Positions 764 to 44,606 of a stretch of DNA of 64,000 bases are shown here, one piece after another. A program made the translations under genes and the position numbers. Within the stretch, counting starts at the first letter, position 1, and each line of letters opens with the position of its first letter. A model generated the notes under the pieces. That model was given only the letters and a program-made list of their open reading frames with translations, had not been told where the DNA came from and ran no database searches. This stretch comes from Hexactinellida sp. DTS-2022 (Eukaryota > Porifera > Hexactinellida). Location: assembly GCA_028753945.1 (NCBI GenBank), contig JAPNXP010000001.1, positions 1,850,501 through 1,914,500 on the forward strand. The letters are read 5' to 3'.

Positions 764-1126
764 ATGCAAACAAATCTAAATGTCGATAATATTCTCAGAC
801 CTCAGCAGAGTCAGGTCGCAGTGGAAAAAGTTAGGCCGCTCCTAAAAAATAATAAGTTTAAAAAGACGGTGAATGTACTAATCGACAACTTAAGATGGAT
901 TAATTCACTCATGAATAATGCAGAGGAAAATTTGAAAGAATTCGTTGTCAACACCGAAGAGTTAAACGAGAACACAGATTACAATATGACTAAGGTTCCT
1001 AATTTCAATCTTAATAAGTTCAAAGCAGATATCAGATGCGGACGGATATCTGAAACAGCAAAAGCTATTCTGAAGAAAGAGCCGAGCAGCAGGACAGAGG
1101 AGGAAACTAGGCAACTTTGCAATCTG
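764..1126 (+). CDS. CNBD2: CNBD2-like, coding exon 1
   Basis: 121 codons from an ATG that directly follows an in-frame TAA. The exon ends phase 0 at a consensus GTGAGT donor at 1127. It encodes the mostly helical N-terminal region, including the stretch NFNLNKFKAD and the acidic TEEETRQL segment typical of the region before the first cNMP domain in CNBD2 proteins. Reading past the donor adds only 11 codons before a stop. Confidence 0.75.
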
Positions 1127-4100
1127 GTGAGTTTAGAGGGATATACTGTATATAATTTTTAACATTTCATAATTTACGATGAGTTAGATATTTACACTTA
1201 CGCCATTTTCCTAACTATGCTACTTAATTAACTTGGTATCTATTTGTCATTACATCTGCATTTGAAAGTCAACTTTCTATTATTTATCACAGTTAATACA
1301 GTGCAGGTTTTTTTTAAGGTTGAGACCTTGGTGTAACTCAGGGGTCGGCAACCCCCGGCCCGCAGGCCAGATTTGGCCCGCGAGGCGAAATGATCCGGCC
1401 CGCTGCTTTCTATAAACATGCTCATCATGACCTCCGATTTGTTCATTCAAATAAATCCAAATAAAGTATACCCTCGCTATCCGGAAGAGAGGTGTTCCGA
1501 TTCAAAAAATTATGTTTCGATTCGTGAATTTGTATGGAATAGTCAACTAATACGTTTATATAAACCTCTATAAATGAGATCATGGATTCCTGATAATCCA
1601 AACCATACAAGTCCAAAGCTTTTAAATCCAAACTAAACATTTAACATGCCGGGTATAAGCACATCGTCGGGAACTGCACTTAATGTGCTTATAACTGGCA
1701 TGTTCCTATAACTGACATAAATTATATAGGGTAAATGTCAAAGGTTTTCCAAATAGTGTTCTTAGATCCGATATGTTCTTATAAACGGTATGCTTATATC
1801 CGACGTCTAATGTACTATCCAAAATTCCAAATACTTCTCTAAGACATTTTTTCACAATTCCAATGTACCTAATGTTAAAAAAAATTCCAAATTTTACGAA
1901 TGATAATTTTGGATCTGCTGTTCGGACTAGCGAGGTTCGGAATAGAGAGGGTGAACAATATTTTTATAAATTATAGTGTGGTAACATTATTGAGATAAGT
2001 TAATTCAAATTTACTCCTGATCAACAATTCTACAATGGAACAATTCGGAGTAAGACTAAACGATGGTAAAATCGCTTGGTTCGACTAATGCGGTAAATTA
2101 ATCAATCTGGCCCGTAGGTTCAAAAGGTTGCCGACCCATGGTGTAACTCAACACTGCAGCGGCCGCGGCCGATACGAATCGTGGTGTAATTCCAAAAAAT
2201 CTTGGTGCTTTTTTTCACCAAGATCGGCCTTTAAAAAAACGCTGGTACAGTGTTTTCTATCTGACCCGGCATATTCAATCAACAAAGCTGATTATATAAT
2301 TTCACAGTTCTTTGGATAGCTAGTTTGCAAGATTTCACCAATAACAAGATACGTTTAGGTCCCACTTAATTAATCCGTTTCCCTACAGGAAGTAGATTCA
2401 TTATTTCTATTATCTTGCATTAGACCAAGTAAAATAAACTACCGTAAACAACGGCGGATTCCTGGGGGGGCATGGGGGGGGCAATTGCCCCCCCCCCCAA
2501 AGTTTTTCAACATTAGAATAACTGAAATTAATTAGTGAACAAGAAAGATAATATAATTTATTGGAAATTCTAATAGGATGAACATGTATTAGCTAGCATG
2601 GACAAATTGTAGTTTAGTAGTATGTGTACTGTGTAGTATTCTATAATTGGAATAAAAAAGTAGCTCTGATAAGTTCAATTTTGCCACCCAGAATTTTTAA
2701 AAGAATCCGCCACTGACCGTAAACCTCATTTTATGCGAAATTCCGGTTAATACGACCACTATTTCTGTCCCCTTCAAAGCTTATAAATATAAATTCCGGA
2801 TAAGGCAAAAGCATTTTGACAGTTCCTTGGTGATTGTACTAACGAGGTTCAATTGTACTTGTTCCATCCAGATATTTTATAAATACGTGTAATTTTTTTT
2901 CATTTTTCAATATCATACTCTAAACATATATTAAGCCAACAACAAAAATACTTTGCTACGAAATAAGAAAAGGTGATGCCCAAAATATAAATTGATACCG
3001 TAAAGACTTATTAAAAGTGATAAATAAACACATTTGTAGCAAATATTAATAAGTAAATGTTCGTGAGATAAAAAATAAAATAAATCCAGACGGAGGGGGA
3101 AATGAGGCGGAAGGGGATAATGAGCAAGTATATAATTAGTATACAATCAGGCCCGTAGCATGCCAACATTTATTGGTGCGGCATAGCGACGTAACCATAT
3201 TTATTATAAACAGAAATGAAGCTTTTGTACTTTATACGCGCTTTACTCTATGGTTTAAGTCAGGGGTTCTCAACCGGGGGGGAATTCCCCCCTAGGGGGG
3301 AATTTGGAGAATTTTGGGGGGAAATTTTTTAACAATTTGGTCATACCTTATAATATCTCTACAAAGTAAAATTACATAAATACTTACAAAGGTGACCAAA
3401 ATATACAAGTAACCTATTTACTATACAACACGATAAGTTTACTACTGATTCTTACTCATATTCTCTCTTGTTTGGAATGAATAATATAATACAATTTACA
3501 GTTCACAATTATGGGGGGGGGGGGGGGGGAATGTCTAGAAATTTCGAAAGGGGGGTAACATGATTGTTTCGGTTAAGAACCCCTGGTTTAAGTTACTCAA
3601 CTAAGGGAAATTAAAAATACATAATACTAATAAAAATTTATAGTCTTTATTGAAGTGTAGCAGAGTTGCTACTTGCTAAAGAATCTAATGGTTACAGATA
3701 CGATATATTTTTCCGGTGGCAGCAGCACCTATGCCACACCTGTGGTAATTGTGTTTACCAATACCATTATGCCGCTCCTATAGTTGTCGGTGACTTAAAT
3801 GTCCCCGAATATCTGTGCGGTCACCAAAATTATTGGTGCGGCCATGCCATGGCCGCACCGCGCACCTACTCATACGGCCCTGACAATGCTACAAAAAGAG
3901 TTAGAATTTACAAAGGTATTAAACCCGAAGTTTAAATAAAGATAGCATCATTGATCATGCATAAAATCTAAGTAAATTAACTAATAACTAATATAAATAG
4001 ACAGAATTTTTTATATTTTTAGAGTAGAGGCTAAGTGGTAACAGACTCCTTGAACACCATATTTAGTACGCCAGCTTTTGAAACCTTTCTTAGATATAAG

Positions 4101-7100
4101 TTCAGTAAATTTATCGACGCAACTTTCATTGTCTGGAGTAACAAGAGCGAACATAGAGCCTCCTCCTCCGCTGCCTGTTAGTTTCGTAGCAAACCCTACC
4201 TCTCTAGCTAATTGATGGATAATATCCAATTCGATACGGCTGACTCCTATAGCACAAAGTAGCTGGTGATTTATGAATATCAAATCTTCCAACAGTTTGT
4301 AATTAGGAAGGACTGCATTTGCAATTATTCGATTAAATTCTTTGATGGAACTCTCGCTGATAGCTCCGATACTCGTTAAAATAGGATTAAATATGTTTGG
4401 GATCTCGTCATGCTTATCTCTTACTAAGGAGACCATCTTATGTGTACTTTTTGGTATCAGGCTGTCGATAATAATTAGAGACAGTAATATATTAGGCGGG
4501 AAAGCTTTCAATGAAGTGAATTCGCCTCCTTTGAATTTCATTGTCCCTCCGTGTGTGCAGATAGCGTTGTCGATGCCAGATGGAGTCCCATGCACAATCT
4601 TCTCTGCAGCAAATCCCCAATTGTTAATGTGTGCCAAATTTTCACGGGAGAAAGAATTTGGGTTAATTTCATCTTTAGCAATGCCTTCTTTCAGTTCTAC
4701 CATCGTAATATCACCGTTAATACCATTCGAGAGCTTGATTTCGCCCGTGAGGATTAACAAGAGAGCGGAGACACATACAGCAAGAGCAGCAGAAGACCCT
4801 AACCCAGCCCCCAACGGAGCATCAGTGTCTACCTCTATGCAAATGCTTTTGGATAATTCATTGCAGCAACAAATGGCAGCAAACAGATATAGGAACACGA
4901 GAGAGGCGATAAATGCGTAAGAGTTTGAATTTGCATCTGCTTGGCAAGCTAAAGATTTCAAACCCTCTATCATCTCACTATACTCGGTAACCACTTTACT
5001 CTTTATTGTTTCAAGAGGCCAGGACGCATCGATATTTAGTTTGGGCATTTTGAAATTGATCATTACACTATTTCCGTCAAGTGCACTGTTTTTTAGCAAA
5101 GCATATGTACGCATGTCAACACTAGTGACTAAGGCGGTCATTCCATAAACAACTGCATGTTCACCATGAAGTATAATTTTAGCAGGACACGATACCGCAA
5201 ATGTAGTGGATAGGACCTCAGCCATACTGACGTATATTATAGTGGAACTAAACTATTTGATTAAGTAGAACTAACACAAAATGATAGTATAAGTTAAACC
5301 TGTTTAGAAAGTAAATAAAGTATGGATTGAAGAAATTTATACATTTGTAAACAGGAGGTAGAATAAGGAGCTTTCTTTTTATAAATGAAGTATAAAATCC
5401 CAAGGGATACGTTAAATTGAACTCTGTTAACCTAGGTATAAAGTTTCATCCACTAAACTTTGACTAAAGCAAATTGTTAAATATCATTTACGAATTAACA
5501 AGCCTTCGATTTCGGTCGCTTCGCAATTTCTAATTCTATGTAACAAAAACTAATATATCCACATTATTAATTTCCAATTAACAAATAACGCTATTATATT
5601 GAGTGAAATGTAATCTCTTGGAGCATTTTCAAATTTCATTAATTTAATAATATTTTGTGAAATAAACAACGTATATATATGTTCATACGTGACCTACGTT
5701 ATAATAAGGCCTGTTCACTAGTGTTAAATTTTGGACCATGGATGTCGTTTAAGTCCATTGATAATTTTACAATAAATGTTATAGTCAGAGATAATTAACC
5801 AAGTAGTAATCCAGAACGAAAAATATGAATGCCTTGCTACCCTTGCAGTCGGTTCGTGTCGAAAATTATCTAAAAATAAATAAAGTTAAACCCAATTAGT
5901 TGTTATTGTTCTTCAAATGTTTATTTGCTAAAAATTTATATTCACTTTCATGTTTTCTTTAATATTTTGTACAATTGTAACATTCATTTACTTCAAATGT
6001 GCTCGGTATTAAACCCAATAATATTTACTTCTTCTGGATTACTACAGTGGAACCTCTATAAGTGGGGAACATGGGACGGGGAAAATTTCAATTGCCCCCC
6101 ATTCCCCGGTTATAAAATTCAATAGGAAAAACATTATATATGCTATATTATACAAAGTATTCATATAACACACACATTAATGCACGTTATAGTTATTATT
6201 TGTATATTATGACAATTTAGTTAACTGCTGATCTACACTAGGTGATTTCTTCTAAAAACATCAGAGTAGATCAATCGAAAATATTTTTTCTGTAGAACTT
6301 TAGAGTCGATTTATTGGAAATATTGTATTATTTTATAAGAATCATGTTAGGATTTGTCCATTCCCCCCATTTATGGAGGTTGTTTTGTATGCAGATAAAA
6401 ACTCCTTGAAATTTATGGTCCCCCATTCCCCACTTCCCCGCTTATAGAGGTTCATTTGTATGGATATATACGAATATGGTAAAAAAATTCCCCACTTATG
6501 GAGGTTCCCCATTTATAGAGACCCCACTTATAGAGGTTGCACTGTACTTGGTTAATTATTTCTGACTATAACATTTATTCTAAAAAGAATCAATGGACTT
6601 AAACGACATCCATGGTCCAAATTTTAACACTAGTGAACAGGCCTTATTATAACGTAGGTCACGGTTCATATTATATTTTGAAATATGAAATTTGTAATCA
6701 GGATACTTGTTTACCTATCATATTAGCCAGTCTCTGTCTAGATAGCAATTGTGTCAAACAAACTATGAGAACAATCAAGTTAATAATATATATGTAACGA
6801 GCCCTTCGGTCTCGGTCGCTTTGCGACAGATCGGTGCTACGCACCTCAAGTTAACGGCCGCTGTGCGGCCTTACTCCTCACATTTTCTACCATGGAAATG
6901 GTAGATAGGGACGTTATGATTTTGATTTTCATTAATTTGTTTACCTATTTGTGTAAACAACAACAACAACAAATACTCATATTAGAAAATTTAAACGCGA
7001 AATTCGTGTTCAGCATACTTGTTTACTTATAATACCCGTTGGAAGCTAACTTCTAGGTTGATTTTGAATTTTAATTAATTTGTTTACCATTTTTGTGTAA

Positions 7101-7394
7101 ACAACAACAACAAATATTCATATTATAAATTTATAAACGCGAAATTCGTGTTCGGCATACTTGTTTACCTATAATACCCGTTGGAAGCTAACTTCTAGGT
7201 TGATTTTGAATTTTAATTAATTTGTTTACCTATTTTGTGTAAACAACAACAACAAATATTAATATGAGAAATTTATAAACGCGAAATTCGTGTTCAGCAT
7301 ACTTGTTTACCTATTATAACATTTGAAAGTTAGTTTATATCCCAATATTAATTGCGGTTTCTATTCCCCCATCACTTTAATACAATCCGGACAA

Positions 7395-7425
<31 letters not shown>

Positions 7426-10400
7426 AACAAACAACAATCGAGATTTAATAATACGAGCCCTTCGGTCTCGGTCGCTTCGCGACGGATCACTCTCTCACAA
7501 AAGTCGCTTCGCGACTTTTGTTCGTTCGTGTTAGGCACTACGCGATACAATTAACGGCCGCTTCGCGGCCTTTCCCTCCCCAAAAGCAATCACATTAATA
7601 ATGAGTTTTAATAGCTCAATAAATTTCAGTTGCACGATAAGAAAGCTCTAATCAAAATGATACTAAAAGAAAAACAGGCATAGAATAGACAAATTATTGA
7701 TTAGTTGAACGAATTTATTTTCAATCAATTAGATTGGAGCCTCAGAAAATATTTCTATTAGGCACAGGCTATTTATACTAATTGAATAAGTTAGCTAATT
7801 CATACTAACAAACCCTCGAATTTAATTGGCTAACAAATTTTGACACCTTAAAATGTTAATATTTCTCTTCAAAAACCAATAGATCGTTGTCGCAGTATAA
7901 AATTACCCCTGTATACAAATTTTCAGCTTTCTGGGACTCGTAGTCTTTCCAATTAATTCTGGACAAACAAACAAACAAACAAACACACAAACAAACAAAC
8001 AAACACACACACAACAATTCCTCTTTTTAGTGTGCTTCTTCTAGTAAAAAACGTTATAGTAGGGTCCTACTATAGTTTTATACTCCAAGTGGGGTCTGAC
8101 TGAATGGTGGAAAATGGTGGAAAACATCCGAGAGTGGTGGAAAATGGTGGAAAATGGTGGAAAATGGTGGAAAACTACTTGACTGAATGGTGGAAAATGG
8201 TGGAATTTCTGAATTTTCGTCGAAATGACTGAATGGTGGAAAGTGGTGGAATTTCTAAAAATCGACTGAAAGGTGGAAAATGGTGGAAAACGACTGAATG
8301 GTGGAAAATGGTGGAAAACGACTGAATGGTGGAAAATGGTGGAAAACGACTGAATGGTGGATAATGGTGGAAAATGACTGAATGGTGGAAAATGGTGGAA
8401 AACGACTGAATGGTGGAAAATGGTGGAAAAACGGGGGCTGACTGAATAGTGGAATCTAGTGGAATCTTTGACTGAATAGTGGAATCGAGTGGAATTTGAT
8501 TAAATTGTTAAACACTACGTATATGCTATAAGCTACGTGTGTATCATATTACGTTAATTTTCGCCCATGTAAAATTGTTTGCAATGATTGAACTAGTGTT
8601 GTGCATGAAGTGGGACAATATGATACTATATTAGTATTCTTACTAATCATCTCTATTGAACTGCCCAATGAATACCAACTGGATTTGATAAGGAATTGTT
8701 GATAAATAATGTAATAAGATGTGTCTAAATAACATGGTAACAAAGCCTAACTAATAAATCCTATTGTGTCACTTCATGCACAACACTAGTTCAATCATTG
8801 CAAACAATTTTACATGGGCGAAAATTAACGTAATATGATACACACGTAGCTTATAGCATATACGTAGTGTTTAACAATTTAATCAAATTCCACTCGATTC
8901 CACTATTCAGTCAAAGATTCCACTAGATTCCACTATTCAGTCAGCCCCCGTTTTTCCACCATTTTCCACCATTCAGGCGTTTTCCACCGTTTTCCACCAT
9001 TTTCCACCATTCAGTCGTTTTCCACCATTTTCCACCATTCAGTCGTTTTCCACCATTCAGTCGTTTTCCACCATTTTCCACCATTTTCCACCTTTCAGTC
9101 GATTTTTAGAAATTCCACCACTTTCCACCATTCAGTCATTTCGACGAAAATTCAGAAATTCCACCATTTCCCACCATTTTCCACCATTCAGTCAAGTAGT
9201 TTTCCACCATTTTCCACCACTCTCGGATGTTTTCCACCATTTTCCACCATTTTCCACCATTCAGTCAGACCCCTATAAGTGCACACTATTGAATTTACCT
9301 CTGTCGGACTTCCGGCCGGCCGGCCGGCCGTACGCGATGGCCTGACTAAACCATTGGTGATAGAGATTTAAAATTTGGACAGGAGATATAGAATTCCCTG
9401 AAGATGATCACCTCGAAGCCCGAATTCTCTATTTCGCTTTTGTTCGTCAGTTATATCGAAATTTGTATTCTGGTCCAGTGACTCTTTAATAATTCGAATT
9501 ATCAATTGAAATTATAGAGGTTGTATTCTCCTAAGGATGTTCTTTCTATTTATCAAGTAAAATGAATAGGTCGCTAATCAATTCTACGTTTTATTCACGA
9601 TTATTTACATAAATCAGTCATCTTCTCCATATTGTAATTACTCTATAGTATACTCATACAATAGAACATATTACATAAGCCTACTATCTGCTAGGATAAT
9701 GACTGTTATTGATTGGTTTGTAAGTGAATATGTGTTTCATACAAGTGCAATGAAAACACTTGGAAGTTGGAACATTTTACAAGTTGTTGATGATGTCAAT
9801 TTATTATTCAAGATAGTAACGTAAATACTAGCACGTATTCCTAATTTCTATTTGTAATAATTAATCTTCAATTAATTTAATTAAACATTTGAAGTCTTCA
9901 CAATTCAAACATTAATTAAATTGTACTACATTAAGATGAAATTTAATTTGAATATTGAAATTCTAGTTAAATTAAACATTGGGGAAGTGTAATCAGAAGG
10001 AGCACACTCCCATCCCGTCTGTGAGGGGTTTTTATATATAGATAGATATAGACCATAACTTGGCATTAAAATCGAGAAATAGTGCAGGGCTTAAAGGGTA
10101 CTAGTTTGGCGCTAAATAATTGAGCGCCACATCTGGGCGAGAGTCAAGCGAATAATCTTTGGAATTGGGTATATATAATTAAATAGGAAATAATATTATT
10201 AAAATTTTCTTGTAGGTGGGTCGTATTAAGTTCTTTGAGAAATATCCTCCAACAGTTCGATATGAATTAAGCAAGGTAATCGAGTTTCAGGCATTCGACA
10301 AGGACAAAGTTATCATAAAACAAGGAGACCAAGCCTATAGCTTCTATTTTATAGTCTCAGGATCTGTTCTTGTTGAGGTTACTGAAGAAGATCAAACAGC

Positions 10401-19400: not shown

Positions 19401-22400
19401 ACAAGTGGAATCAATATAATAATTAGTTGAAACTACCGCACTATTTATTGTTCCTTTTCTAACATTGAATAGGTGCAAAAATGTGTCCAAAAAATTGTAA
19501 TCAAAAATCGTGACTCCAGGTGCACATCTGTAACCCATCAGACACCTATCGTGAAAATTTGGGCTCTTAGTTAAGAAAACTCTGTCTGTGGAGAGGATAC
19601 GGACCATTAATAAAATCTGAAATTACACCTGAGCCGAAAACTTAGTTGTTTAATACGTCTTTTATTGGATACTTATTACGCATAATACGTATAATGTAAT
19701 ACGTATTATAGGGCCGGGAAATAATTATACTATAACCGTGACCTTCGATATATAGGCCATACCACTGAGTATATTTTTCTGGACCATGGATTACTTAAAG
19801 TCCATTGATAAATAGGTTATTTATATTTATTTCCATAACTAGTAGTTTTAATAACCTGCTTTTACTATAGTTAAACGCGTTATAAATGTTCAAGATTGGA
19901 ACATGATATTGCCCAGGACTTGTTAAAGAAATATATTTAAATTTGAATGGAATATTGACACATTCCTCGGTTTCCAGGAAAATGTATATTTCCTAAATGA
20001 ACCATAACTCAAAGACTATCAATTTTATATAAACTGGGCTAGTTCTGATCTATCCGGAATAGGTAACTCTTATTCATTGATAATACATCATTTATGCTTG
20101 ACTTCATTAACTTTTGAGATAATTAGCAAATAATTTTCTAAGCTAATAATCTCTTTATCACAAAAGTAGAACAATTTCTGAAGGATGCTATGAATGCTAT
20201 GTATACCTTGATACCAAGTTCATATCTACTAGTTATAGTACATTTATGACGTCTATCATTACTAGTTATGGAGATAAATATAAATAACCTATTTATCAAT
20301 GGACTTTAAGTAATCCATGGTATAATCAGTGGTATGGCCTTATATATCGAAGGTCACGGTATACCTTACTAATAAAATCGCGCTCATGGAATTTGCTTTG
20401 AAAAACTTTCGGTTTTATCGTTCTTTTATTGTTAATCGACTCATAGTATAACTGCTAGCATCTTGTACAGTGTTTTTTTTTAGGATTTGCTTAGAGGGCC
20501 CTGTTGTATCGTATTTTGAGGCGCTGTATGATACACTATTATAAACCATGGATATGCTATTACAAATTCCACTGTGGTATTTTGAGGCGCTCTGATCGAT
20601 TGAAACGCTACTATAAATGTGATTTCCTAACATTTTGCATTATATTAAGAACTCTAGACTCTGTATAAGTGAACCATGGATGCGCTATTAAAATTATATT
20701 GTGGTATTTTGAGGCGCGTAGTAAACAATTTTCCATTTCGAGAATTCACTTAATTTAATGTAAAATTGATTAGTTATCTTAAATTTGCGAGTAACTACGA
20801 TAAATTATCTCGTAAATGATAGGAAATCACATTTCTAGTAGCGTCTCAATCTATCAGAGCGCCTCAAAATACCACTGTATAATTTGTAATAGCATATCCA
20901 TGGTTTATATTGGTGTATCATACAGCGCCTCAAAATACGATACAACAGCCCTACCAACAATTAGAGGCCCTCACCCTACATTTCATGATATTGAGTACTT
21001 AGCACGTTCAAAATTAGAGGCCCATTGAGAAAAATTAGAAGCCCATTTTGGGCCTCTAATTTGCCTTAAAAAAACACTGATCTTGTATTTATAATCAGAT
21101 TTAAAATTTTACTGTATTTACTTCGAAAACATCCCTGGTTGATCATAGATTTAGCGCATAATACGTACTGATGTATAACGTATCATACGTATTATACGCA
21201 ATATACGCAATAAGCGTATTAATCAACTTAGGCCGACAGTATGTTCCTTGGAGGCACTATCTTTTGGTGGTTGGTGGATTGATGGTGCCTCCAAAAGAAC
21301 ATGCTGTCGGCACAGGTGTATTTCAGATTTTTGTCACGTGATCATCACTGTGGAGGTGTAAAACCATTTCAGAAAGGTGTTTCGGGAGGCAACGACCGTT
21401 AGAGTGGTTGAAGTTTCCTTTTATCACACTTCATTTCGGCACATGGAAATAGGAAAAATATATTGCGTTGGTTGTATTGAAGTAATGCCAGATACATGCA
21501 TACAAACAAGTTCATAGATAAGATAGGGACTAACTGTGATTTATGTATGTACCTATCTGAGCACTAACTAACTTCATTACGTGTAAACTAGATTTTACTA
21601 ATAAAGAATTATGTTAAAATACACTGAGCTACTCTCATTAGTTATTAGATACTACACAAGTTCCTGTTAAGAGAATAGAGCTCTTCACTTGCTACATGCA
21701 TCCATAAGATCAGGAGGGAGAGCGAACTAGAATAAGATTATGGTAATGTATTTGTTCTCACTATTGCCTATCATTTCCTAGGTCTCTTGTTCCCGCGGTT
21801 ACCGCCACTCTGTCTGCGGTCGTAGTAACCCCCTCGGTAGCTGTTATAGCCGCCCCCCTGTCCATACCCGTAGCCCCCTTGGCCATAGCTACCTGGGTAC
21901 ACGGGGTAGGGCGCGTACCCACCCCTGTTGTAACCATGTCCTCCTGAGTACCCGCCATATCCGCCCTGTCGATACCCACTGGATTGCTGTGGGCTGGAAC
22001 GGTAGTCCCGGTGGTCGCGATAATCTCTCCTTCCCCCGCGCCCCATCCGGGGGTACCTGTCTCTCCGACGGACATCTTTCCGCGGGGCCCATTGCGGCTC
22101 TCCTTGCAGCGACTTGATCACCTTGTCCTTTACCAGTTCTGGAAAACGAATCTCTGCAAACAGCTCTCCCTCCTCAGGAATGTGGAACACGAGCTTCATC
22201 TGAGACATCAGCGAAGCCCTGGGGATGAAGTCTGCCACTTGTCTTTGTCTGAAAGAGAGAAAGTTGTCAAAAGGGTGTACAATTACTGCTATTCGTTTGA
22301 ACTGATCGAAAGGTTTCAAGCGACGAGTTTGTGTGGCTTTAAAGATTGATCGAGTATCAATTATCAAGTGGCGATCCTTGGTCGCGGCCAGTCGACAGAA

Positions 22401-25400
22401 CCCATCGAGGAGCTGGGCTTTGAAAGGTAGCGGCTTTGTGGTCGTGACTGGGTCTCCCTCGTAGGTTCGCTTTCTAACGATATCAGGGTAGAACAGGGGC
22501 TGTATCGACTCGTCGCACACGTGGAGGTACCGCTTCCCCTCATTATTCATCATATACTTCTCTACCCATCTGGTCTTGCCGCAGCCCGGCAGTCCGATGA
22601 TGAAGAGTAGTTCCTTCTCCTCGCCCGATCGAGTGCCCGGTTTTATGAGCTTCTCCTCTGCTCCACTGCTCAGGGGGAGAAATCCCTCTGGCAGCTCGTG
22701 CTGGAAAGGAGTAGCACCGAAGTTAACTTCGATTTGGAACTGTCGCGCAGCAACATGAGGGAAGAATGCATCCCTGGTTGCTTTGGGTATCTGGTGAGCT
22801 GATCCCAGATCTACTCCATTCAGTGCAAACGAAGTCTCAGGCGGGTCGGTCTCGAAATTAATCATAACACTGACCACATCTCCATCAGAAAATATTTTCC
22901 CGTAGGAAGTGTGGTTTCTGTCTCGGACGATAGAGCCAGAACTGTCGTAGGCGTACGAGTTAGGAGACGAGCCGAGTAGGAAGGGACATCTGTCTGTCGA
23001 CCATCCTACCCGGACGCCAGGCGCTGGGGCTTCCTCGCATTCAACGCTGGTCGGTAAAAACTTCAAGACTCTACACTCGAACCCAAACTTACCTTCTCTC
23101 ACTCCAAAATTCGCTCTTCCGCCTGCCCACAATAGCTGTAGTGGTCCGTCTTGTCTGTTCTGAGCAGTCAGGCCCTGCCCCGCTATCTGGAAGTTCAGCT
23201 CGCAGTTGACACAGTCAAGTACAATCGATTTATCATCCTCAGGAGGCGTGTACGTGTCCGATTCTATATCCAGGACCTGATCCGCGTCGTCTTCATCCAC
23301 CGTGTCTGCATCCATGGGGGGCAGCTCCTCGACTGACTCTGACTCTGGCTCTGGCTCAAGCTTAGGCTTAGGCTCGCTAGAGTCCATGTCCTCCATCTTC
23401 TCGGTGGAGTCGGGTGGCGCCTCTGAGTTCTCTAAGTTGTCAGCCTCCTTAGACATGTCCATCTCGAAGATGGGAGGCGCTGTCTCTGAGTATTCGAGGA
23501 TAGTCGCTTCTGAGAAACTCTCCGGTTTGGCAACCTCGACAAGAACATCCGGCCCTTCTTTTTCCTCTGTGGTGCATTCCTTCTGCTCCGTCATGTTGTG
23601 CACGGAGTACTCGGGCAAGTCCCCCTCTGGGTCCTCTGGGGTCCCGTTCTCCGGTTCTAAGGGGACATCCATTCCTTGCAACCGCTCATCCACCATTAGG
23701 TCCTGTAGCCGCTTCACCAAGTCTGCTTTCTTGCCCGTAGTGTCCACACCTCTGCGTTTTAGTTCTGCCTTGAGCTTGTCCACTTTGAGCGGACTTACAA
23801 ACTCAGAAACTTGGGACTCAACTTCTTCTTTAGATGACATATCTCATGTGTGAAAGTACTAGGTAGATAACTTGCTGGAAAAGTAAAGAAACCAGAAAAG
23901 ATTGAGCTAATTGAAAATAACAAATAATCCAATAAATGATGCCATATCGATAGTATTTAATGGAAAAGAACAATGTATTGGTTTCATAATAAAGATATGA
24001 TTAAAATTTATGAGATAAACAATCAATAAGTAAGCAGATCTATTAAAAAAATTCAAGCTCATAAAAGATATAAATTAAAGCTCGCTTCAATGTACATTTG
24101 AACAACTGGGAATTATTGGAATTTCCAATTGTGTATTATGTGGGTGGAGATTATAGGGACATATCTAGGACTAATTAGCTAATTACTAGTTGAGGGGGTG
24201 TTCAGACTTCAGGCCTAGGGTGGAGCCCACCCCCTCAGAATTTCAATATTGGGGCCCACTGAAGTCCTGCCACGCCGGATCCACCAAGGATGGAGTGCAT
24301 TGTGCAAACATATTTTGCTACCAAAATGCCTATTTCCACTAAAATGTCATTTAAAGCCACTGTGTTGAATAAATCAAAAAGGTTTGGACATTCGAAACTC
24401 GCTATAGAACTGGGACCAGTGGGCATGTTCGGATAATTAAGTACATTGTGTAATATATTTATTTATTACGAGTGATATTTTGAGGAGGGTAAGGCCACGA
24501 AGCGACGGTAATTGTGTCACGTAGTGTCTAACACGGACGAAGGTTGCTTCGCGACCCTTGTGAGAGAGTGATCCTTCGCGAAGCGACCGAGACCGCAGGG
24601 CTCGTAGTTTATAAATAGCTTTAATTATACGTATAATATAGCTAGAATTACTTAGTATACTATAGGGCAGCGTTTCTCAAACATATTTAACCTCCGCCCC
24701 CCTCCATCGAATTTAGAAATTTCACGTCCCCCTTCCAAAAAATTCCCATTTCAACTATGTGATATAGCAAAATTCTACACTTATACTATCACAACACAAA
24801 GATTTATGTGTGTATATAAATGTTATGTCGATTTTGTCAAATGTTGATTTTCAATCAACATACAAATTGAACTTTAATTGTAGTTTATTTTGTAAAATCG
24901 AGAATATTGATTTTATAAAATCAGCATTTAACAAAATCGATTTTACAAAACCAACTAATAGAATAAGTTGATTTTGTAAAATCGACATTCAGAATGTCGA
25001 TTTTACAAAATCAACTGATAAAATATGTTGATTTTATAAAATCGACATATTTTATTTGTTGAATTTCTAAACCCACACTTAAAATGGCCCGAGCGTTTCA
25101 AATAACCATACAAGACACTTTGTTTAAAGCCTGGTTCTTTTATCTTGTTATGTACTACGTGCTTACTCAGTTAAGCATGGCTTTTACTCTCATTCCACAC
25201 CTTGGTAGAGAATGTTGATTCATGTAGATTTTGTAAAATCAACATTTGACAAAATCGACATACACGTAATTATATATGGTATATAAGTAAGTGATTAACA
25301 ACTATTAACAGGGCTTATGAATCTACTATATAAATTACCCCATTGAATCTAGCAAGAACAATAATACCGGTGGATGAGTGCCCCATGTTGCCCAGGTTGA

Positions 25401-27724
25401 CCTCAAGGTCTAGCTACTCCACTGCTTCAAAGCATACGAGATTGGTTTTATAACTTCTATTGATCTTGTTTAGTTTGTAAATTATGGTAACAATAATATA
25501 ATTACATTACATTCTGTAAATAAAAATGTCAGGGCCGCTGTACTTATTCAGGAAAATTGATTTACTAACAAAACAATATTTCCACCTCTGGGAACCACTG
25601 TGTTAGGAGATGACACCCAATCCCCCCTAGTTACTTCACTGGAGCAGGGATGGTGAATGCGAATGCTAACCAGTCACCGAATAGTTAGAAAACCAAATAA
25701 GTAACCGGTGCAATCTATATAAAATAAATATTTATAATAATCACTTCTAGCGTTGCCAAAACAGAACAGGGTATCTCATATCATATATTTACCTTATTTA
25801 CTCGAATAGGTCCCCTCAAATCAGGGCCGGACTAAGTCATGCTGAAACCCCTAAGGCCTAAGCTATATCATCTTCGGAGGTCCCCATTTTAGTAATATAC
25901 TAAACTACTACTATAAAATTTTACCCATGTATAATAATAACACGATAAAAAAACACTGCCTATCGAAAGGGTTAACGGAACGTCGGGAACTAAGCTATAG
26001 CTACAGTACAGCTTATTTAGTTTATGTCGCAATCCGGCATTGCCTTGAATAATCCCTACATCAAACAATTGCCTCCAGTGTTTGCCAGAAAAGACCACCC
26101 CGGAAAAGGGCAGTAAATTTGGAAAAAACCACTTATGACCATATATGGCAACACTGCATGCCCATTCAGCTTCTATATGCAAGAGACAGCTTCTATATGC
26201 AAGAGACAGATTTTCTAAAGAGATTCTACACTTCTAGTGCACCGATTGTAAAATTTAGGACTTTTGAGAGTGGGTCCCTAATGTTAAACTAAGGTTAGTA
26301 GATTAACCACTGAATACACTGATATACGTATATGATATGTTTACTAATACGTAGTACCAAACGTGCTAGGTAAACGCTGATAAGTGTGGTATGTAGGAAT
26401 TCTTCGATACCAAATATCATTTAAAAGTAATCTAACCGTGTGAAAGATATCAAATTGTGGAATAAGCATTTACTTACTATAGACAGTAAAATAGAATCCG
26501 CACTGTCACCGAAATATATTAATCATGCGAGGCCAGTAAATAGAAAAAGGCAGAAAAGTCCAGAAAAGGGCGTTTTTTTCCGGAAAAAAACAGATTTTTC
26601 CAGCTGCCCCGGTCTTTTCTAGAAAAGGGCGGTTTTTTCCGAATACTGATTGCCTCTAAGGGGTTTCAAAATAGGTAACTAGGTAATCCAGGAATAAATT
26701 ATCATACAATTATCACACAAGCATGTGACGTATTACCTGCATTAGCAATAGTAGCTCAACTAAAAATAATAGCTACGAGTATAGTAGCCGGGTGAAGTGC
26801 CACAGAGTGCCAAGGTGCTTGCAGTTCCATTTAAGTGCCGAGTGTCTGGCCAGATTTTCTGACCCAGAAATTCCTGGATAAACCTTGTTAGAGTGAGTAC
26901 CGTACAAATATTATCTCCATCAAACAATGCAGCATTATTGAATTATAGCGATCATGTATTGTCTAAATCTAAAACCTTTAGGGTGCCCTAAAAAATTTGC
27001 CACCATAATAAAGTGCCGGGGGGGCGATTATTCGAGGGGGGCTACTATTCAAGGAAATACGGTATGTTGATAATCAATTTGTTACTAATAAACAAATTAA
27101 TAAGAGCTTCTTCAATTTGTGGGCTGTCTATAAAACCCCATACAAACTAAGTTAATAATTTGTATACCGTCTATAAATTCTGTGCCAAGAAAATCCTAGA
27201 TAAACCCCAGGCCCTGACTGTAATTGTATATTGTGTAAAAACCTTTTTAAAGCATCCCACTATTTCACGGAGGTTCCAACTTCCAACACCCCCATTAGGT
27301 TAGAATAGTAACAGTAACTAAATAACTCGATTATACCCTAATCACATTTCATCAATATAGAGAAATATTCAAAGAGGATACTTTGAGGAGGAAGAGCAAG
27401 ATCCCGACTTACAAACCAAGATTAAAATTACAACTCCACACTTGGGTAGTGGCTTATCTTACGAAGGGAGATTATTTTGGCGTAGGTGAGAAATTAGAAA
27501 ACGCTCACGTCATTGCAGAAGGTAAAGTCACTTGTATTTTAGTGCCTACTTTCACTTTTATTCATCATGATAATGGAAGAACACTTGAGGAAATGCGTGC
27601 AGATATTCATGATCGTTATCCAAACAAACAAAGTGCAATAAGAAGTTACAATGTAAACAAACGTTGGGATACTTACAAGAAACAAATTGTTCAGGAAGTG
27701 TTACAAAGAAAAGGAAAGATGTAA
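764..27724 (+). CDS. CNBD2: CNBD2-like cyclic nucleotide-binding domain protein, four coding exons
   Basis: Coding exons are 764-1126, 10216-10548, 10817-11184 and 27361-27724, giving 475 residues. Donors are GTGAGT, GTTAGT and GTAAGT, acceptors are all AG, and the phases (0, 0, 2) match at every junction. The N-terminal part ends in a TEEETRQL motif like that preceding the first domain in CNBD2. Exon 2 encodes a full cNMP-binding fold with the phosphate-binding cassette FGELALIHECKRRAT, which keeps Gly, Glu and Arg. A second, degenerate domain starts in exon 3 (VHFIISGQCKVV) and resumes in exon 4 (YLTKGDYFGVGE), so the long intron splits one domain. Mammalian CNBD2 (576 aa) acts in sperm; cAMP binding here is inferred from the cassette. 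The 9.1-kb and 16.2-kb introns hold four opposite-strand genes. A further 5' exon is possible. No transcript evidence is available. Confidence 0.8.
1339..2140. mobile_element. hAT-type non-autonomous element with a second element nested inside
   Basis: It begins CAGGGGTCGGCAACC and ends GGTTGCCGACCCATG, an imperfect inverted repeat. Both sides carry the identical 8-bp duplication GTGTAACT (1331-1338 and 2141-2148). Inside, about 1471-1951 has its own inverted ends (CCCTCGCTATCCGGAA at the left; TTCGGAATAGAGAGGG at the right), so a second element was inserted later. No transposase is present. Confidence 0.8.
2449..2715. mobile_element. hAT-type MITE, G-run rich
   Basis: Ends are CAACGGCGGATTC and GAATCCGCCACTG, an inverted pair with one change. 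Flanking 8-bp duplications ACCGTAAA lie at 2441-2448 and 2716-2723 and are identical. Long G and C runs follow the left end. Confidence 0.82.
3148..3882. mobile_element. Repeat family D, copy 1 (interrupted MITE)
   Basis: It starts CAGGCCCGTAGCATGCC and ends CATACGGCCCTG. The arms around 3176-3257 and 3716-3840 are repeated in inverse orientation at about 32770-33555. The 89-codon open frame inside it (3666-3935) is therefore repeat sequence, not a gene. The flanks share ACAAT but offset, so the target duplication is unclear. It is interrupted by the element at 3261-3585. Confidence 0.6.
3261..3585. mobile_element. hAT-type MITE nested in repeat D, with a G18 run
   Basis: Ends are CAGGGGTTCTCAACC and GGTTAAGAACCCCTG. 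The identical 8-bp duplication GTTTAAGT flanks it (3253-3260 and 3586-3593). It contains a run of about 18 G near 3511-3529 and further G tracts beside the left end. Confidence 0.85.
4011..5225 (-). CDS. MVK: Mevalonate kinase, intronless, nested in CNBD2 intron 1
   Basis: 404 residues (human enzyme 396) with all GHMP-kinase signatures. Residues 14-28 carry PAKIILHGEHAVVYG with the substrate-contacting Lys. Residues 137-147 carry PLGAGLGSSAA, the phosphate-binding loop. Residues 213-220 carry GTPSGIDN with the catalytic Asp. The C-terminal glycine loop reads TGSGGGGSM. The enzyme phosphorylates mevalonate to mevalonate-5-phosphate using ATP, in the cytosol or peroxisome, on the route to isoprenoids and sterols. 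The ATG at 5223-5225 is the first Met and gives the family's usual N-terminus. There is no frameshift or stop. It lies on the strand opposite its host intron. The lack of introns could mean an old retrocopy that is still intact, or a lineage with few introns. Confidence 0.95.
   Translation of the reverse strand: MAEVLSTTFAVSCPAKIILHGEHAVVYGMTALVTSVDMRTYALLKNSALDGNSVMINFKMPKLNIDASWPLETIKSKVVTEYSEMIEGLKSLACQADANSNSYAFIASLVFLYLFAAICCCNELSKSICIEVDTDAPLGAGLGSSAALAVCVSALLLILTGEIKLSNGINGDITMVELKEGIAKDEINPNSFSRENLAHINNWGFAAEKIVHGTPSGIDNAICTHGGTMKFKGGEFTSLKAFPPNILLSLIIIDSLIPKSTHKMVSLVRDKHDEIPNIFNPILTSIGAISESSIKEFNRIIANAVLPNYKLLEDLIFINHQLLCAIGVSRIELDIIHQLAREVGFATKLTGSGGGGSMFALVTPDNESCVDKFTELISKKGFKSWRTKYGVQGVCYHLASTLKI
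5226..5686. other. AT-rich spacer
   Basis: Upstream of the mevalonate kinase start. A partial GC-hairpin motif (CGGTCGCTTCGCAAT) lies near 5513-5528. I see no gene here. Confidence 0.3.
5687..6664. mobile_element. Long-TIR element, family C copy 1, carrying a nested pogo-like insertion
   Basis: About 125 bp at each end are inverted repeats (outer motif CGTGACCTACGTTATAA at left, its complement at right, and a shared CCATGGATGTCGTTTAAG block). The flanking 5-bp repeats TTCAT are identical (5682-5686 and 6665-6669). The uninterrupted sister copy is at 57284-57760. No coding capacity. Confidence 0.75.
6045..6544. mobile_element. pogo/Tigger-like MITE inserted in family C copy 1
   Basis: Ends are CAGTGGAACCTCTATAAG and CTTATAGAGGTTGCACTG, flanked by TA on both sides (6043-6044 and 6545-6546). 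The equivalent point in the copy at 57284-57760 reads ATTACTACTTGG with a single TA, which is the empty site. The interior repeats several CCCCACTTATAGAGG-like segments. Confidence 0.85.
6795..7452 (+). mobile_element. GC-head, CA-tail element, copy A, with three satellite units
   Basis: Opens with CGAGCCCTTCGGTCTCGG and the hairpin ACGGCCGCTGTGCGGCC. Three tandem units of about 140 bp follow, each containing TGTAAACAACAACAACAAA, then a unique segment ending in a CA microsatellite (7397-7421) and ACAACAATCGAGATTTAATA. The second copy at 42165-43262 has the same order but about six units. The 60-codon frame here is repeat. Confidence 0.65.
7453..8028 (+). mobile_element. Second GC-head element, head-to-tail with the previous one
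   Basis: Begins with the same CGAGCCCTTCGGTCTCGG head immediately after the tail of the preceding element. It carries two triloop hairpins (AAAGTCGC-TTC-GCGACTTT and GGCCGC-TTC-GCGGCC) and ends with AATTCTGGACAAACAAAC, a CA/CAAA repeat and ACAACAATTCCTC. The tail half is shared with 12200-12755, 61035-61260 and 63215 onward. Confidence 0.55.
8029..10028 (+). mobile_element. Family A element, interrupted by a large inverted repeat
   Basis: Left end AGTGTGCTTCTTCTAGT and right part AGAAGGAGCACACT form an inverted pair; sequence conserved among copies continues to CCCATCCCGTCTGTGAGGG. It holds an internal palindrome around GTAGGGTCCTAC and a GGCCGGCC run. Complete or near-complete copies are at 27916-28649 (+) and 36927-37735 (-), partial ones at 12762-13140 (-) and 13394-13541 (+). 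About 1.18 kb of foreign inverted repeat sits inside this copy. Confidence 0.7.
8093..9272. repeat. Giant inverted repeat of GGTGGAAAAT units nested in family A
   Basis: The arms (about 8093-8615 and 8762-9272) are near-complementary. Outer parts are tandem 10-20-bp units of the type GAATGGTGGAAAATGGTGG; inner parts are single-copy and include CAATGATTGAACTAGTGTTG and its complement. The loop is about 150 bp. Outer ends read GGGGTCTGACTG and CAGTCAGACCCC. Comparison with the intact family A copies shows it split TTATACT from ATAAGTGC, with an AAGTG-containing imperfect duplication. The 64-codon frame in it is spurious. Confidence 0.75.
10216..10548 (+). CDS. CNBD2: CNBD2-like, coding exon 2 (first cNMP-binding domain)
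   Basis: The acceptor TTTTCTTGTAG ends at 10215 and the GTTAGT donor begins at 10549; the exon is 111 codons, phase 0 to 0. It encodes nearly a whole cyclic-nucleotide-binding beta roll: VIIKQGDQAYSFYFIVSG, then the cassette FGELALIHECKRRAT. There is no in-frame ATG upstream, so this is an internal exon. Confidence 0.85.
10817..11184 (+). CDS. CNBD2: CNBD2-like, coding exon 3
   Basis: The acceptor TTAATTAATAG ends at 10816 and the consensus donor GTAAGT starts at 11185. The exon starts in phase 0 and leaves two bases (AA) that pair with the A opening exon 4 to give Lys. It encodes the link after domain one and the first strands of the second cNMP-like domain, followed by an acidic loop with a DESLYYDDAP stretch. 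Intron 2 is only 268 bp. Confidence 0.82.
11400..12755 (+). mobile_element. Long CA-tailed repeat, copy 1
   Basis: Segments around 11400-11580, 11665-11775 and 12350-12755 recur in inverse orientation between 63215 and the window end at 64000. Near 12240-12370 and 12590-12750 it repeats its own tail: CCAATAGATCGTTGTCGCAG, CTAGGACTCGTAGTCTTTCC, then GGACAAACACACAC. This looks like two tails in series. No coding sequence. Class not determined. Confidence 0.5.
12762..13140 (-). mobile_element. Family A element, partial copy
   Basis: Matches the complement of the left half of family A, including GCGTACGGCCGGTCGGCCGG and the palindrome GTAGGACCCTAC, ending AGAAGAAGCACACT. Confidence 0.65.
13379..13541 (+). 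mobile_element. GC hairpin fused to the right end of family A
   Basis: The hairpin GGCCGC-GAA-GCGGCC at 13379-13393 is followed at once by the family A right end (AATTTAAACATTTGAAGTC to CCCATCCCGTCTGTGAGGG). This shows that the two sequence classes recombine or nest. Confidence 0.55.
13981..15426 (-). CDS. SLC49A4: SLC49A4 (DIRC2)-like major facilitator, intronless, nested in CNBD2 intron 3
   Basis: 481 residues with about 12 hydrophobic segments. The N-terminal tail is polar and acidic (ESESSEDLDVL). TM1 reads VLLLFSLFCFLQNLFVNTWGP, whose NTWGPI is characteristic of the SLC49 group. QFINGLAGPVVV and NWFPSNERNIATA match the SLC49A4 pattern of a glycine-rich TM5 entry followed by a WF-x-ER-x-x-A-T-A loop. 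The human protein (478 aa) is a lysosomal transporter reported to export pyridoxine with protons; that function here is inferred. Other SLC49 members (FLVCR haem/choline transporters, SLC49A3) are the alternative. The ATG at 15424-15426 is the first Met. The gene is antisense to its host intron. Confidence 0.85.
   Translation of the reverse strand: MTHNINTLEFNKDAVESESSEDLDVLQNELNLMQMDTHILIPNDLKIKSTWSRFYVLLLFSLFCFLQNLFVNTWGPIADSTEVALNRSDQGTTVAWLSNSAAIAYIPGTILFYLIINYLGLRFGVVVAMFLISLSGVMRCFVFSVSNTLGTILLFSAQFINGLAGPVVVSATTQLSANWFPSNERNIATALSGQSSNIGISISFILGPLLVPDVNTSCISSDCRSDLTDSIIRLLYIEAVAPVALFALIVLYFPSRPKLAPSITATVERFNFVATAKSYTRNYPLILLSLCYAIPVGVNTGWYGFLYPNLRRLSVHVTQKYVGWLGFYMSIAGAISAVFFSKIADHFPRRKKLLVVSLFSIAAILLVLFSLICLDIIHIGDNIYILLTTTGVICGVFLSAVDPILKELIVEVGFPIAEFNSTLMASLIFDVIMILFFGIASLSFLGTTWINWFQVAVYISSAILVFLTPIKFNRLDRDTKH
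15508..16521. mobile_element. pogo/Tigger-like element with nested hAT MITE
   Basis: Left end after TA reads CATGGTAGTTGCTTTATTAG, right end reads CTAATAAAGCAACTCCACTG without exact identity at the tip, followed by TA. Interior segments repeat CCTATTAGCAA. A related shorter copy is at 18400-18572. It contains the hAT-type insertion at 16115-16360. Confidence 0.6.
16115..16360. mobile_element. hAT-type MITE with GATATTCGGTT satellite interior
   Basis: Ends are CAAGGTTGAAACC and GGTTTCAACCTTG. The identical 8-bp duplication GTATTTTC lies at 16107-16114 and 16361-16368. The interior is a low-complexity array of ATTCGGT/ACCGAAT and GATATCAG words. The 69-codon frame over it is spurious. Confidence 0.82.
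16788..17219 (-). CDS. Small TRAF-type/XAF1-like zinc-finger protein, nested in CNBD2 intron 3
   Basis: 143 residues, nearly all zinc-finger. Three or four spaced units of the C-x2-C ... H-x3-C or H-x4-C kind are visible: CRLCTSWVKLETIGYHVARQC, CSSCNKDIMRKHFNRHKEGEC, CIYCHQLVNKSEIGNHAKIVC and CSKCRVQLRKKILEKHLERC. A charged helix (EQKQEKEKLAEETK) separates the two pairs. This arrangement resembles the TRAF-type fingers of XAF1 and TRAFD1, which act in signalling and protein-protein contact, but the protein is much shorter and no RING is seen. The start ATG at 17217-17219 leaves one finger starting at residue 9. It may be a stand-alone adaptor. A specific orthologue is not recognised. Confidence 0.7.
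   Translation of the reverse strand: MATSINVKCRLCTSWVKLETIGYHVARQCPDAFKWCSSCNKDIMRKHFNRHKEGECSILDEQKQEKEKLAEETKVLMVTCIYCHQLVNKSEIGNHAKIVCPERMTTCSKCRVQLRKKILEKHLERCPARTENILQIELHSISK
17220..18029. other. AT-rich intronic DNA
   Basis: No open frame, repeat family or RNA gene recognised. Confidence 0.3.
18030..18203. mobile_element. hAT-type MITE of GACTC-rich family, copy 1
   Basis: Starts CAGAACTTTTCACGAGTCA and ends TGACTCATGAAAAGCCCTG, with the identical 8-bp duplication CTTGTTTT on each side (18022-18029 and 18204-18211). The interior is a series of GACTCGGTGACTCGAGTCA-like palindromic words. The larger sister copy is at 30663-31148. Confidence 0.88.
18400..18572. mobile_element. pogo/Tigger-like MITE
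   Basis: Left CACTAGAATTGCTTTATTAG and right CTAATAAAGCAATTCCACTG are inverted, with TA on both sides. Shares interior words with 15508-16521. Confidence 0.7.
18605..18830. repeat. Hairpin-bearing repeat, diverged copy
   Basis: Matches 21230-21440. The hairpin arms (GGCACTATC ... TCCAAAAGAACATGC) are still visible but paired less well than in the other copy. Confidence 0.55.
18831..19735. other. AT-rich intronic DNA
   Basis: Contains ACGTATTA-type words near 19655-19712. No gene or defined element recognised; the 72-codon minus frame (19389-19607) shows no domain or composition that supports coding. Confidence 0.3.
19736..20359. mobile_element. Long-TIR element related to family C
   Basis: Left CCGTGACCTTCGATATATAG and right CTATATATCGAAGGTCACGG type ends (the right end actually reads TTATATATCGAAGG) enclose arms that share CCATGGATTACTTAAAGTCC in inverse order. 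Flanks TATAA and TATAC differ at one of five bases. The order of motifs mirrors family C (5687-6664, 57284-57760) although most of the interior differs. Confidence 0.65.
20468..21079. mobile_element. hAT-type MITE with large internal palindrome
   Basis: Ends CAGTGTTTTTTTTT and AAAAAAACACTG; identical 8-bp duplication ATCTTGTA at 20460-20467 and 21080-21087. Arms containing ATTTTGAGGCGC and its complement run inward from both sides. Two short frames (72 and 70 codons) on opposite strands are the same repeat read twice. Confidence 0.85.
21233..21310. repeat. 78-nt long-stem hairpin within a repeat
   Basis: CCGACAGTATGTTC and TTGGAGGCACTATC pair with GATGGTGCCTCCAA and GAACATGCTGTCGG around a loop of about 15-18 nt. 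The stem is about 30 pairs with few mismatches. A diverged copy is at 18611-18690. Confidence 0.6.
21771..23840 (-). CDS. hnRNP U/UL-family SAP-SPRY-ATPase RNA-binding protein, intronless, nested in CNBD2 intron 3
   Basis: 689 residues in the family order. A SAP DNA-binding motif lies at residues 15-49 (VDKLKAELKRRGVDTTGKKADLV broken over two helices). An acidic, Glu/Pro-rich stretch follows to about 205. A SPRY domain covers about 215-390 (GFECRVLKF, VGWSTDRCPF, DGDVVSVMINF). A P-loop polynucleotide-kinase-like domain begins near 412 with the Walker A GLPGCGKT. The C-terminal tail from about 600 is Arg/Gly/Tyr-rich (GRGGRRDYRDHRDYR, RGGYYDRRQ). Human hnRNP U (825 aa) and HNRNPUL1/2 act in the nucleus as scaffold-attachment, RNA-processing and DNA-damage factors; the role here is inferred. 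The coding region is clearly more GC-rich than its surroundings. It is opposite to the host gene and lacks introns. Confidence 0.93.
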   Translation of the reverse strand: MSSKEEVESQVSEFVSPLKVDKLKAELKRRGVDTTGKKADLVKRLQDLMVDERLQGMDVPLEPENGTPEDPEGDLPEYSVHNMTEQKECTTEEKEGPDVLVEVAKPESFSEATILEYSETAPPIFEMDMSKEADNLENSEAPPDSTEKMEDMDSSEPKPKLEPEPESESVEELPPMDADTVDEDDADQVLDIESDTYTPPEDDKSIVLDCVNCELNFQIAGQGLTAQNRQDGPLQLLWAGGRANFGVREGKFGFECRVLKFLPTSVECEEAPAPGVRVGWSTDRCPFLLGSSPNSYAYDSSGSIVRDRNHTSYGKIFSDGDVVSVMINFETDPPETSFALNGVDLGSAHQIPKATRDAFFPHVAARQFQIEVNFGATPFQHELPEGFLPLSSGAEEKLIKPGTRSGEEKELLFIIGLPGCGKTRWVEKYMMNNEGKRYLHVCDESIQPLFYPDIVRKRTYEGDPVTTTKPLPFKAQLLDGFCRLAATKDRHLIIDTRSIFKATQTRRLKPFDQFKRIAVIVHPFDNFLSFRQRQVADFIPRASLMSQMKLVFHIPEEGELFAEIRFPELVKDKVIKSLQGEPQWAPRKDVRRRDRYPRMGRGGRRDYRDHRDYRSSPQQSSGYRQGGYGGYSGGHGYNRGGYAPYPVYPGSYGQGGYGYGQGGGYNSYRGGYYDRRQSGGNRGNKRPRK
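23841..24480. other. AT-rich intronic DNA, probable 5' region of the hnRNP U-type gene
   Basis: The transcription start of the minus-strand gene should lie here. A GC-rich repeat-like segment occurs at 24196-24300. No gene is supported. Confidence 0.3.
24490..24610 (-). repeat. GC-head module (triloop hairpin family), single copy
   Basis: Complement of the CGAGCCCTGCGGTCTCGG head with GGTCGCTTCGCG and GGTTGCTTCGCGACCC cores. It is the same order as at 7453-7570. Confidence 0.6.
24668..25600. mobile_element. Probable hAT-type element with TTTTGTAAAATCGACA satellite
   Basis: Left CAGCGTTTCTCAAAC and right GGGAACCACTG resemble hAT ends. The flanking octamers (CTATAGGG, TGTTAGGA) do not match well, so the borders are less secure. 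Between 24833 and 25265 it carries repeated palindromic words GATTTTGTAAAATCGACAT. Confidence 0.5.
25793..27063. mobile_element. TIR element with CCTTATTTACTCGAATAG ends, probably with insertions
   Basis: Left CCTTATTTACTCGAATAG and right CTATTCAAGGAAATACGG are inverted. The same terminal words flank 43350-43610. The interior includes CGATTATTCGAGGGGGG near the right end, repeated AAAGGGC...TTTTTTCC words at 26550-26640, and AACCCCTAAGG inverted at 25847 and 26655. The two short frames inside show no domains. Confidence 0.45.
27361..27724 (+). CDS. CNBD2: CNBD2-like, terminal coding exon
   Basis: The acceptor ATCAATATAG ends at 27360. The first base completes the Lys codon split from exon 3. 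The exon encodes a basic linker, then VVAYLTKGDYFGVGEKL, which is the turn and cassette region of the second cNMP-like domain without the ligand-binding Arg, and a charged helical C-terminal tail with a YNVNKRWDTYKKQI stretch. The stop is at 27722-27724. On its own the segment is a half domain, which argues for joining it to exon 3 across 16 kb. Confidence 0.78.
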
Positions 27725-44310: not shown

Positions 44311-44606
44311 TAGCCACAATTTAACACAAAATGGGCAAAATACAGTACGGTATATAAAATTTGATCCGATAGGTCAGTAATACCAAACCTACCAACTGTC
44401 TAGGGATTTCGCCAGGCACGGATCCACCGGGGGGGTGCAGGAGGGTGCGCACCCCCCCAACTCTTCATGAGATTGGACTCAGAGACTGTCACATTTCACA
44501 GATAGCTAAATTAGAGTGATAATTACTCTATGTTTTAAATTTGCACCCCCCCCCCCCCCCACTTTACGACGCACTCGCAGAGAAAACCGCGCTGGAGCCG
44601 ATAGCT

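Follow-up and report, generated by a model that had tools for sequence, protein, structure and literature searches.

A sponge cNMP-binding gene that very probably hosts four antisense single-exon genes in two giant introns

The closest described systems come from a glass sponge, a ctenophore and, as far as the host protein is concerned, the mouse. For the glass sponge Aphrocallistes vastus, the excerpted text of the genome paper gives 2,432 nested genes (12.4%), with 12,409 single-exon transcripts and 19,578 genes, and presents glassin as a single-exon nested gene in two glass sponges (PMC10282587). The same excerpts describe introns that are mostly short, with a mean of 516 bp on one scaffold, and report a trans-spliced leader motif; they also count 83 nested genes in Oopsacas minuta and 0 in Ephydatia, low counts for which the authors blame the annotation method (PMC10282587). 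In the ctenophore Hormiphora californensis, 2,357 nested genes were placed in 1,654 hosts, and a figure legend in the excerpts presents a single host that holds four of them (PMC8527503). CRIS is a cNMP-binding protein of the mouse, expressed only in sperm precursors, and the excerpts of that report describe one CNBD as its sole motif (PMC3854790). How does a sponge locus with one host and four guests compare with these?

The window analysed here is a stretch of 64,000 nucleotides (C1:1,850,501-1,914,500) from a 112.4-Mb assembly of 18 contigs. Very probably it holds one 27-kb plus-strand host gene with four coding exons, which encodes an intact and a degenerate cNMP domain, is spliced as one pre-mRNA and carries four minus-strand single-exon genes in two giant introns (Table 1). 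A single host with four antisense nested genes is what had been predicted, and the exon borders, the reading frame and the protein matches that cross junctions 1 and 2 bear this out. The original prediction also called the host CNBD2-like, a name that we take to be the current one for the mouse gene CRIS.

Table 1. Features of the host gene, its nested genes and the fold-back repeat, in window coordinates
Feature	Position	Strand	Description
Host exon 1	764-1126	+	ATG at 764; 363 nt; phase 0 end; donor CTG/GTGAGT
Host intron 1	1127-10215	+	9,089 bp; contains mevalonate kinase gene
Mevalonate kinase	4011-5225	-	404 aa; single exon; in host intron 1
Fold-back repeat	8103-9261	.	GGTGGAAAAT-type motif; longest arms 244 nt, 98% complementary; in intron 1
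Host exon 2	10216-10548	+	333 nt; donor GAA/GTTAGT; canonical cNMP-binding domain
Host intron 2	10549-10816	+	268 bp
Host exon 3	10817-11184	+	368 nt; donor TAA/GTAAGT; putative first half of degenerate second cNMP-like domain
Host intron 3	11185-27360	+	16,176 bp; contains three antisense genes
MFS transporter, SLC49/FLVCR type	13981-15426	-	481 aa; single exon; in host intron 3
Small CEP104/TRAF-type zinc-finger protein	16788-17219	-	143 aa; single exon; in host intron 3
hnRNP U-type protein (SAP + SPRY + P-loop + RGG/GY-rich)	21771-23840	-	689 aa; single exon; in host intron 3
Host exon 4	27361-27724	+	364 nt; stop TAA; putative second half of split cNMP-like domain, and C terminus

The host introns have GT-AG borders throughout, and splicing the four exons gives one open frame of 475 aa with phases 0, 0 and 2. 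The exon lengths and this frame thus confirm the predicted phase agreement at all three junctions, although such agreement arises by chance in about 1 case in 27 and is weak evidence taken alone. At the 5' end the open frame starts at 761, with a stop just before the ATG, and an ATTAAA lies 46 nt 3' of the host stop codon. Splice sites were scored with vertebrate weights; on this scale the intron 3 donor is good (3.1% of the GTs in the window reach its score), the exon 2 donor weak (12.3% of the GTs) and the exon 4 acceptor mediocre or ordinary (21.8% of the AGs). A hexamer coding score put exon 1 above all 47 non-coding frames and exons 2, 3 and 4 below 4, 2 and 5 of them, respectively, and for each of these three exons another frame outranked the true one. 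This test is uninformative; exon 2, which is surely coding, also got the wrong frame. Neither a close second copy of the host in the 112.4-Mb assembly nor, at E <= 0.1, a second genome-wide match to exon 4 was found.

The domain content of the host protein is clearest around exon 2, whose open frame (10216-10614) matches PF00027 with 65.9 bits (E 3.1e-18; cut-off 27.5); the joined protein reaches 80.8 bits against the same cut-off. Among solved structures, Rap guanine exchange factor 4 (1o7f, E 2.3e-27), presumably EPAC2, comes closest to the host protein and aligns to residues 101-238. This alignment spans the last 21 codons of exon 1, which ends at residue 121, and runs on into exon 2 across junction 1. 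Junction 2 (residue 232) is covered by cGMP-dependent protein kinases (5ezr and others, which we take to be apicomplexan) that match residues ~139-300 in one stretch, as judged by match range and not by alignment.

Is a second domain cut in two by the 16.2-kb intron, as had been claimed? Exon 3 alone gives 12.2 bits against PF00027 (E 0.19, profile positions 2-33) and exon 4 alone gives no match, whereas joining them raises the score to 19.4 bits (E 0.0011), two stretches passing individually; the output positions only the first of these, within exon 3. The second cNMP domain thus stays below the PF00027 cut-off (19.4 versus 27.5 bits), and we read it as degenerate. None of ten control joins, in which exon 3 was fused to six shuffles of exon 4 or to two other window frames, or two shuffles of exon 3 to the real exon 4, gave a cNMP match. 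Eight of these ten had an intact exon 3, yet its own 12.2-bit match went unlisted, so HMMER filters may explain part of the control result. Searching the joined half against solved structures returned four matches at E <= 10, all of them PKG1 chains (E 0.5-1.4), which align weakly to the exon 4 stretch LTKGDYFG...VTC. In HHalign comparisons with the cNMP domains of the genome, the whole joined half aligned through exon 3 alone (E 0.0055). Once the long insert that sits between two beta-roll pieces was cut out by hand, both halves aligned (score 34.7, E 3.4e-6, probability 87.7); leaving the host's own exon 2 out of the templates gave a score of 30.1. When the exon 4 piece was shuffled 200 times, one shuffle tied with the HHalign score, and two of 300 natural 55-aa pieces of the window exceeded it, both from the real domain of exon 2. 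A small local cNMP HMM gave 7.5 bits for the joined exons and 3.2 bits for the exon 4 frame, the latter not significant, with at least 4 of 1,000 shuffles higher (best 5.5-6.1 bits). Taken together, the HHalign result and the position of GDYFG in exon 4 support an intron that cuts one domain. The continuity of the cNMP-like domain across junction 3 is supported, not proven, by sequence comparison, and the gain on joining exons 3 and 4 agrees with the claim of a split domain.

Could the main transcript instead end in intron 3? Intronic polyadenylation would then leave a product of exons 1-3 only (...DFLNK), the exon 4 form being rare or a relic. Directly past the exon 3 donor the frame reads K and then the stop TAA at 11186-11188. 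Intron 3 contains 38 AATAAA, where 18 are expected from base composition, the first of them 177 nt past the donor, and the mediocre acceptor of exon 4 would suit the same outcome. Exon 4, however, has a 132-codon open frame that is in phase with exon 3 and resembles the missing half of the domain; when 300 one-strand stretches of 3 kb were simulated with the surrounding composition, ~2% held a chance frame of at least 120 aa. We therefore regard a main transcript without exon 4 as unlikely, and favour splicing of exon 3 to exon 4 across the whole intron. Exon 4 might also be a separate transcription unit, served for example by trans-spliced leaders, or the halves might be joined in trans. The leader motif described in the A. 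vastus excerpts makes this conceivable for a glass sponge, but exon 4 begins mid-domain and the cis splice sites match in phase; moreover, translation from its first in-frame ATG would give just 43 residues, which makes exon 4 a poor gene on its own. Such a separate origin of exon 4 is extremely unlikely, and a host spliced in cis from four exons remains the preferred reading.

How exceptional are introns of this length in the genome? A sample was compiled by reading the gaps that separate matched pieces of a domain as introns, for kinesin motors at 25 loci, for myosin heads and for dynein DHC_N2 domains. Kinesins gave 33 gaps from all 62 rows; myosins and dyneins gave 78 gaps from 73 of 79 and 32 of 44 rows, respectively, after dropping whole-domain single-piece rows, four dynein rows on C3, a single row on C6 and another on C15. 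Two of the 78 gaps, of 177 and 363 nt, proved not to be introns, as an open frame runs through them, so the sample is ~109 and not 111; further short gaps may be inserts, and exons missed by the profile lengthen some gaps. A protein-kinase search was unfit for this use, the best 127 of 419 candidates being scored and mostly unbroken. Only three of the ~109 sampled introns exceed 9 kb (10,220, 13,048 and 13,378 bp), all in other conserved genes, and for this reason the giant introns of the host belong to the upper tail. Two of the three host introns pass 9 kb, and the 16.2-kb intron is longer than every sampled one.

Repeats cover ~37% of the two giant introns when defined as sequence that recurs within the 235 kb of genome DNA compared, overlapping loci included. 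On this measure coverage is 54% in intron 1 and 34.8% in intron 3, or ~28% in the latter without 14072-15156, where the transporter gene matches its own broken copy. Once transcribed, the fold-back repeat of intron 1 could pair into a long hairpin. A dispersed repeat family lies just past the 3' end of the host (window 28000-28660), with related copies in intron 1 (9312-10035) and elsewhere; at least 45 matches came from the 40 places scored out of 749 candidates in the genome. An error of assembly behind the long gap, or a rearrangement that recently broke the gene so that its halves ceased to make a joint message, would fit the rarity of such introns and the repeat content of both, but is barely credible given that the halves lie in order on the same strand of a 17.6-Mb contig, that both reading frames are intact and that other conserved genes here have introns of 10-13 kb.

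The remaining surroundings of the host are mixed. Downstream, at window 29624-30535, lies a single-exon RING-finger (zf-RING_5) coiled-coil protein, which in our view presumably resembles RNF212-type proteins. Farther on, the plus strand carries FLYWCH/MULE transposase-like frames and a long reverse-transcriptase frame (RVT_1) at 40666-42122 and 44523-47270. Upstream of the window, two minus-strand frames (L036:457-2971) likely make up the host's neighbour on that side; in the first, which we assume to be EPS8-like, SAM_3 matches and SH3 stays sub-threshold.

The four guests are open single exons inside the inferred host introns, all antisense to the host. Reading frames and domain matches thus bear out the predicted layout, with mevalonate kinase in intron 1 and the other three genes in intron 3. 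The mevalonate kinase matches a family model (TIGR00549, 194.2 bits against a cut-off of 163.05) and a solved structure (PDB 1kvk, E 5.3e-61), and it has a single genome match at E <= 0.001. The transporter, searched with a query that carried one extra upstream codon, matches MFS_1 (E 6e-20) and FLVCR1 (8ubw, E 9.1e-13). The gene had been predicted to resemble SLC49A4 (DIRC2), but the five solved structures related to it are all of FLVCR1 or FLVCR2, which we take to be members of the SLC49 family, and it is called SLC49-type on this basis. It has a paralogue on C4 (42%), also in one frame, and a broken copy ~140 kb upstream of the window (C1:1,709,423-1,711,107; L030), which shows 76-84% DNA identity and contains stops and frame shifts. 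This broken copy is interrupted by a 389-bp insert whose short inverted ends are flanked by an 8-9 bp duplication with one mismatch; an intron was considered for it and rejected, as the ends resemble those of a DNA transposon.

The small protein predicted as a TRAF finger does carry a zinc finger, but the family name was imprecise: zf-TRAF stays under its cut-off (21.0 versus 27 bits), whereas CEP104_ZnF (PF21039) passes (33.4 versus 27.4 bits). A weak similarity to FLN29 (2d9k, E 0.0072) was also found, and the gene has a single genome match at E <= 0.001. The hnRNP U-type assignment holds, with SAP (E 7e-11, 41.9 bits; cut-off 23.9) and SPRY (E 8e-14, 52.2 bits; cut-off 26.3) passing their cut-offs in order in a query without its first M. 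A candidate P-loop follows SPRY, AAA_33 being just under its cut-off of 27 (26.0 bits, E 1.2e-5), and an RGG/GY-rich tail was spotted by eye. Across the genome, a full-length match was found at its own place alone, with two weaker matches in the SPRY region.

Did these single-exon genes arrive by recent retroposition? This was rejected as the default explanation, there being few second copies and no poly(A) remnants, and single-exon genes being common. Three of the four nested genes (all but the transporter) have no close second copy genome-wide, and neither of the two nearest relatives of the transporter is an intron-bearing parent copy. Within 700 nt downstream there is no A/T run of at least 8, save a run of eight A that lies 430 nt beyond the transporter; over the same distance the hnRNP U-type gene has no AATAAA or ATTAAA. 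How common are unbroken genes here? At seven of 25 kinesin loci a single open frame covers the entire motor, and dynein heavy chain frames of 3,993-5,038 aa occur at six places (C1, C2, C4, C8, C11), of which two, of 4,499 and 4,848 aa, were checked to be stop-free; open-frame lengths in the genome were relied on for single-piece matches or where checked in this way. Other dynein heavy chains are cut into many pieces, and genes of this genome seem to be either intronless or intron-rich.

Other nests were sought as open frames in six sampled introns of at least 3 kb, a survey that misses introns outside the domains and intron-bearing nested genes. The C5 intron holds two MULE/FLYWCH transposase frames, with a third frame of 178 aa outside the scan. 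Frames of 171-222 aa lie in the C13 intron, and the one scanned had no Pfam match; the C10 intron holds a Pif1-like helicase fragment and shorter frames outside the scan. No frame of at least 110 aa was found in the C17 intron and none above 115 aa in one C14 intron. The other C14 intron, 3.2 kb long and part of a myosin gene, contains a 434-aa single-exon NHL-repeat frame (L057:1405-2706, plus strand) antisense to its host. One of the six sampled introns thus hosts a likely cellular gene, antisense and single-exon, in what is a small sample.

How might such a locus work? Most likely the host yields a single long pre-mRNA that would lose both giant introns through ordinary splicing, while the nested genes would use their own minus-strand promoters. 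The introns have probably grown to 9.1 and 16.2 kb in part through repeats. By analogy with CRIS and its confinement to sperm precursors, host and guests may escape conflict between the strands if they are expressed in different cells or at different times. Interference with the nested genes by antisense transcription, which the original prediction also raised, is a hypothesis. A bolder proposal is that host transcription is a switch, in which 27 kb of antisense transcription lowers all four nested genes and the nest is a selected regulatory unit; we hold this to be very unlikely. If it were true, turning the host on, for instance only in sperm precursors, would lower mevalonate kinase and the hnRNP U-type gene, and it is only if antisense transcription regulates the nested genes that the nest matters more. 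As it stands, the locus is a clear and checkable example of giant introns packed with genes, in a genome many of whose genes are intronless. It also bears on annotation, as gene finders that bar nesting would break up the host or miss the genes inside it.

Set against the described systems, the host product would resemble CRIS as a stand-alone cNMP-binding-domain protein, a likeness drawn from the excerpted description alone; unlike CRIS with its one CNBD, it appears to add a degenerate second cNMP-like fold. Four nested genes in one host had been called unusual. This is not supported, in view of the 12.4% of nested genes in A. vastus, the four-in-one host of Hormiphora and the NHL-repeat gene antisense in a myosin intron of the present genome. 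Judging from the A. vastus and Hormiphora papers, the nesting, the single-exon nested genes and the count of four are all already known, and such nesting is already known as common in compact sponge and comb-jelly genomes. As far as the excerpts of these papers go, the genome studied here is like that of A. vastus in being a small animal genome rich in single-exon genes, with single-exon nested genes, and unlike it in that the introns of A. vastus are mostly short while the host introns here are of 9.1 and 16.2 kb. The locus is like the Hormiphora one in having four genes nested in one host; there, according to the legend, two of the four are doubly nested, whereas at the present locus each of the four stands apart from the others and runs antisense to the host.
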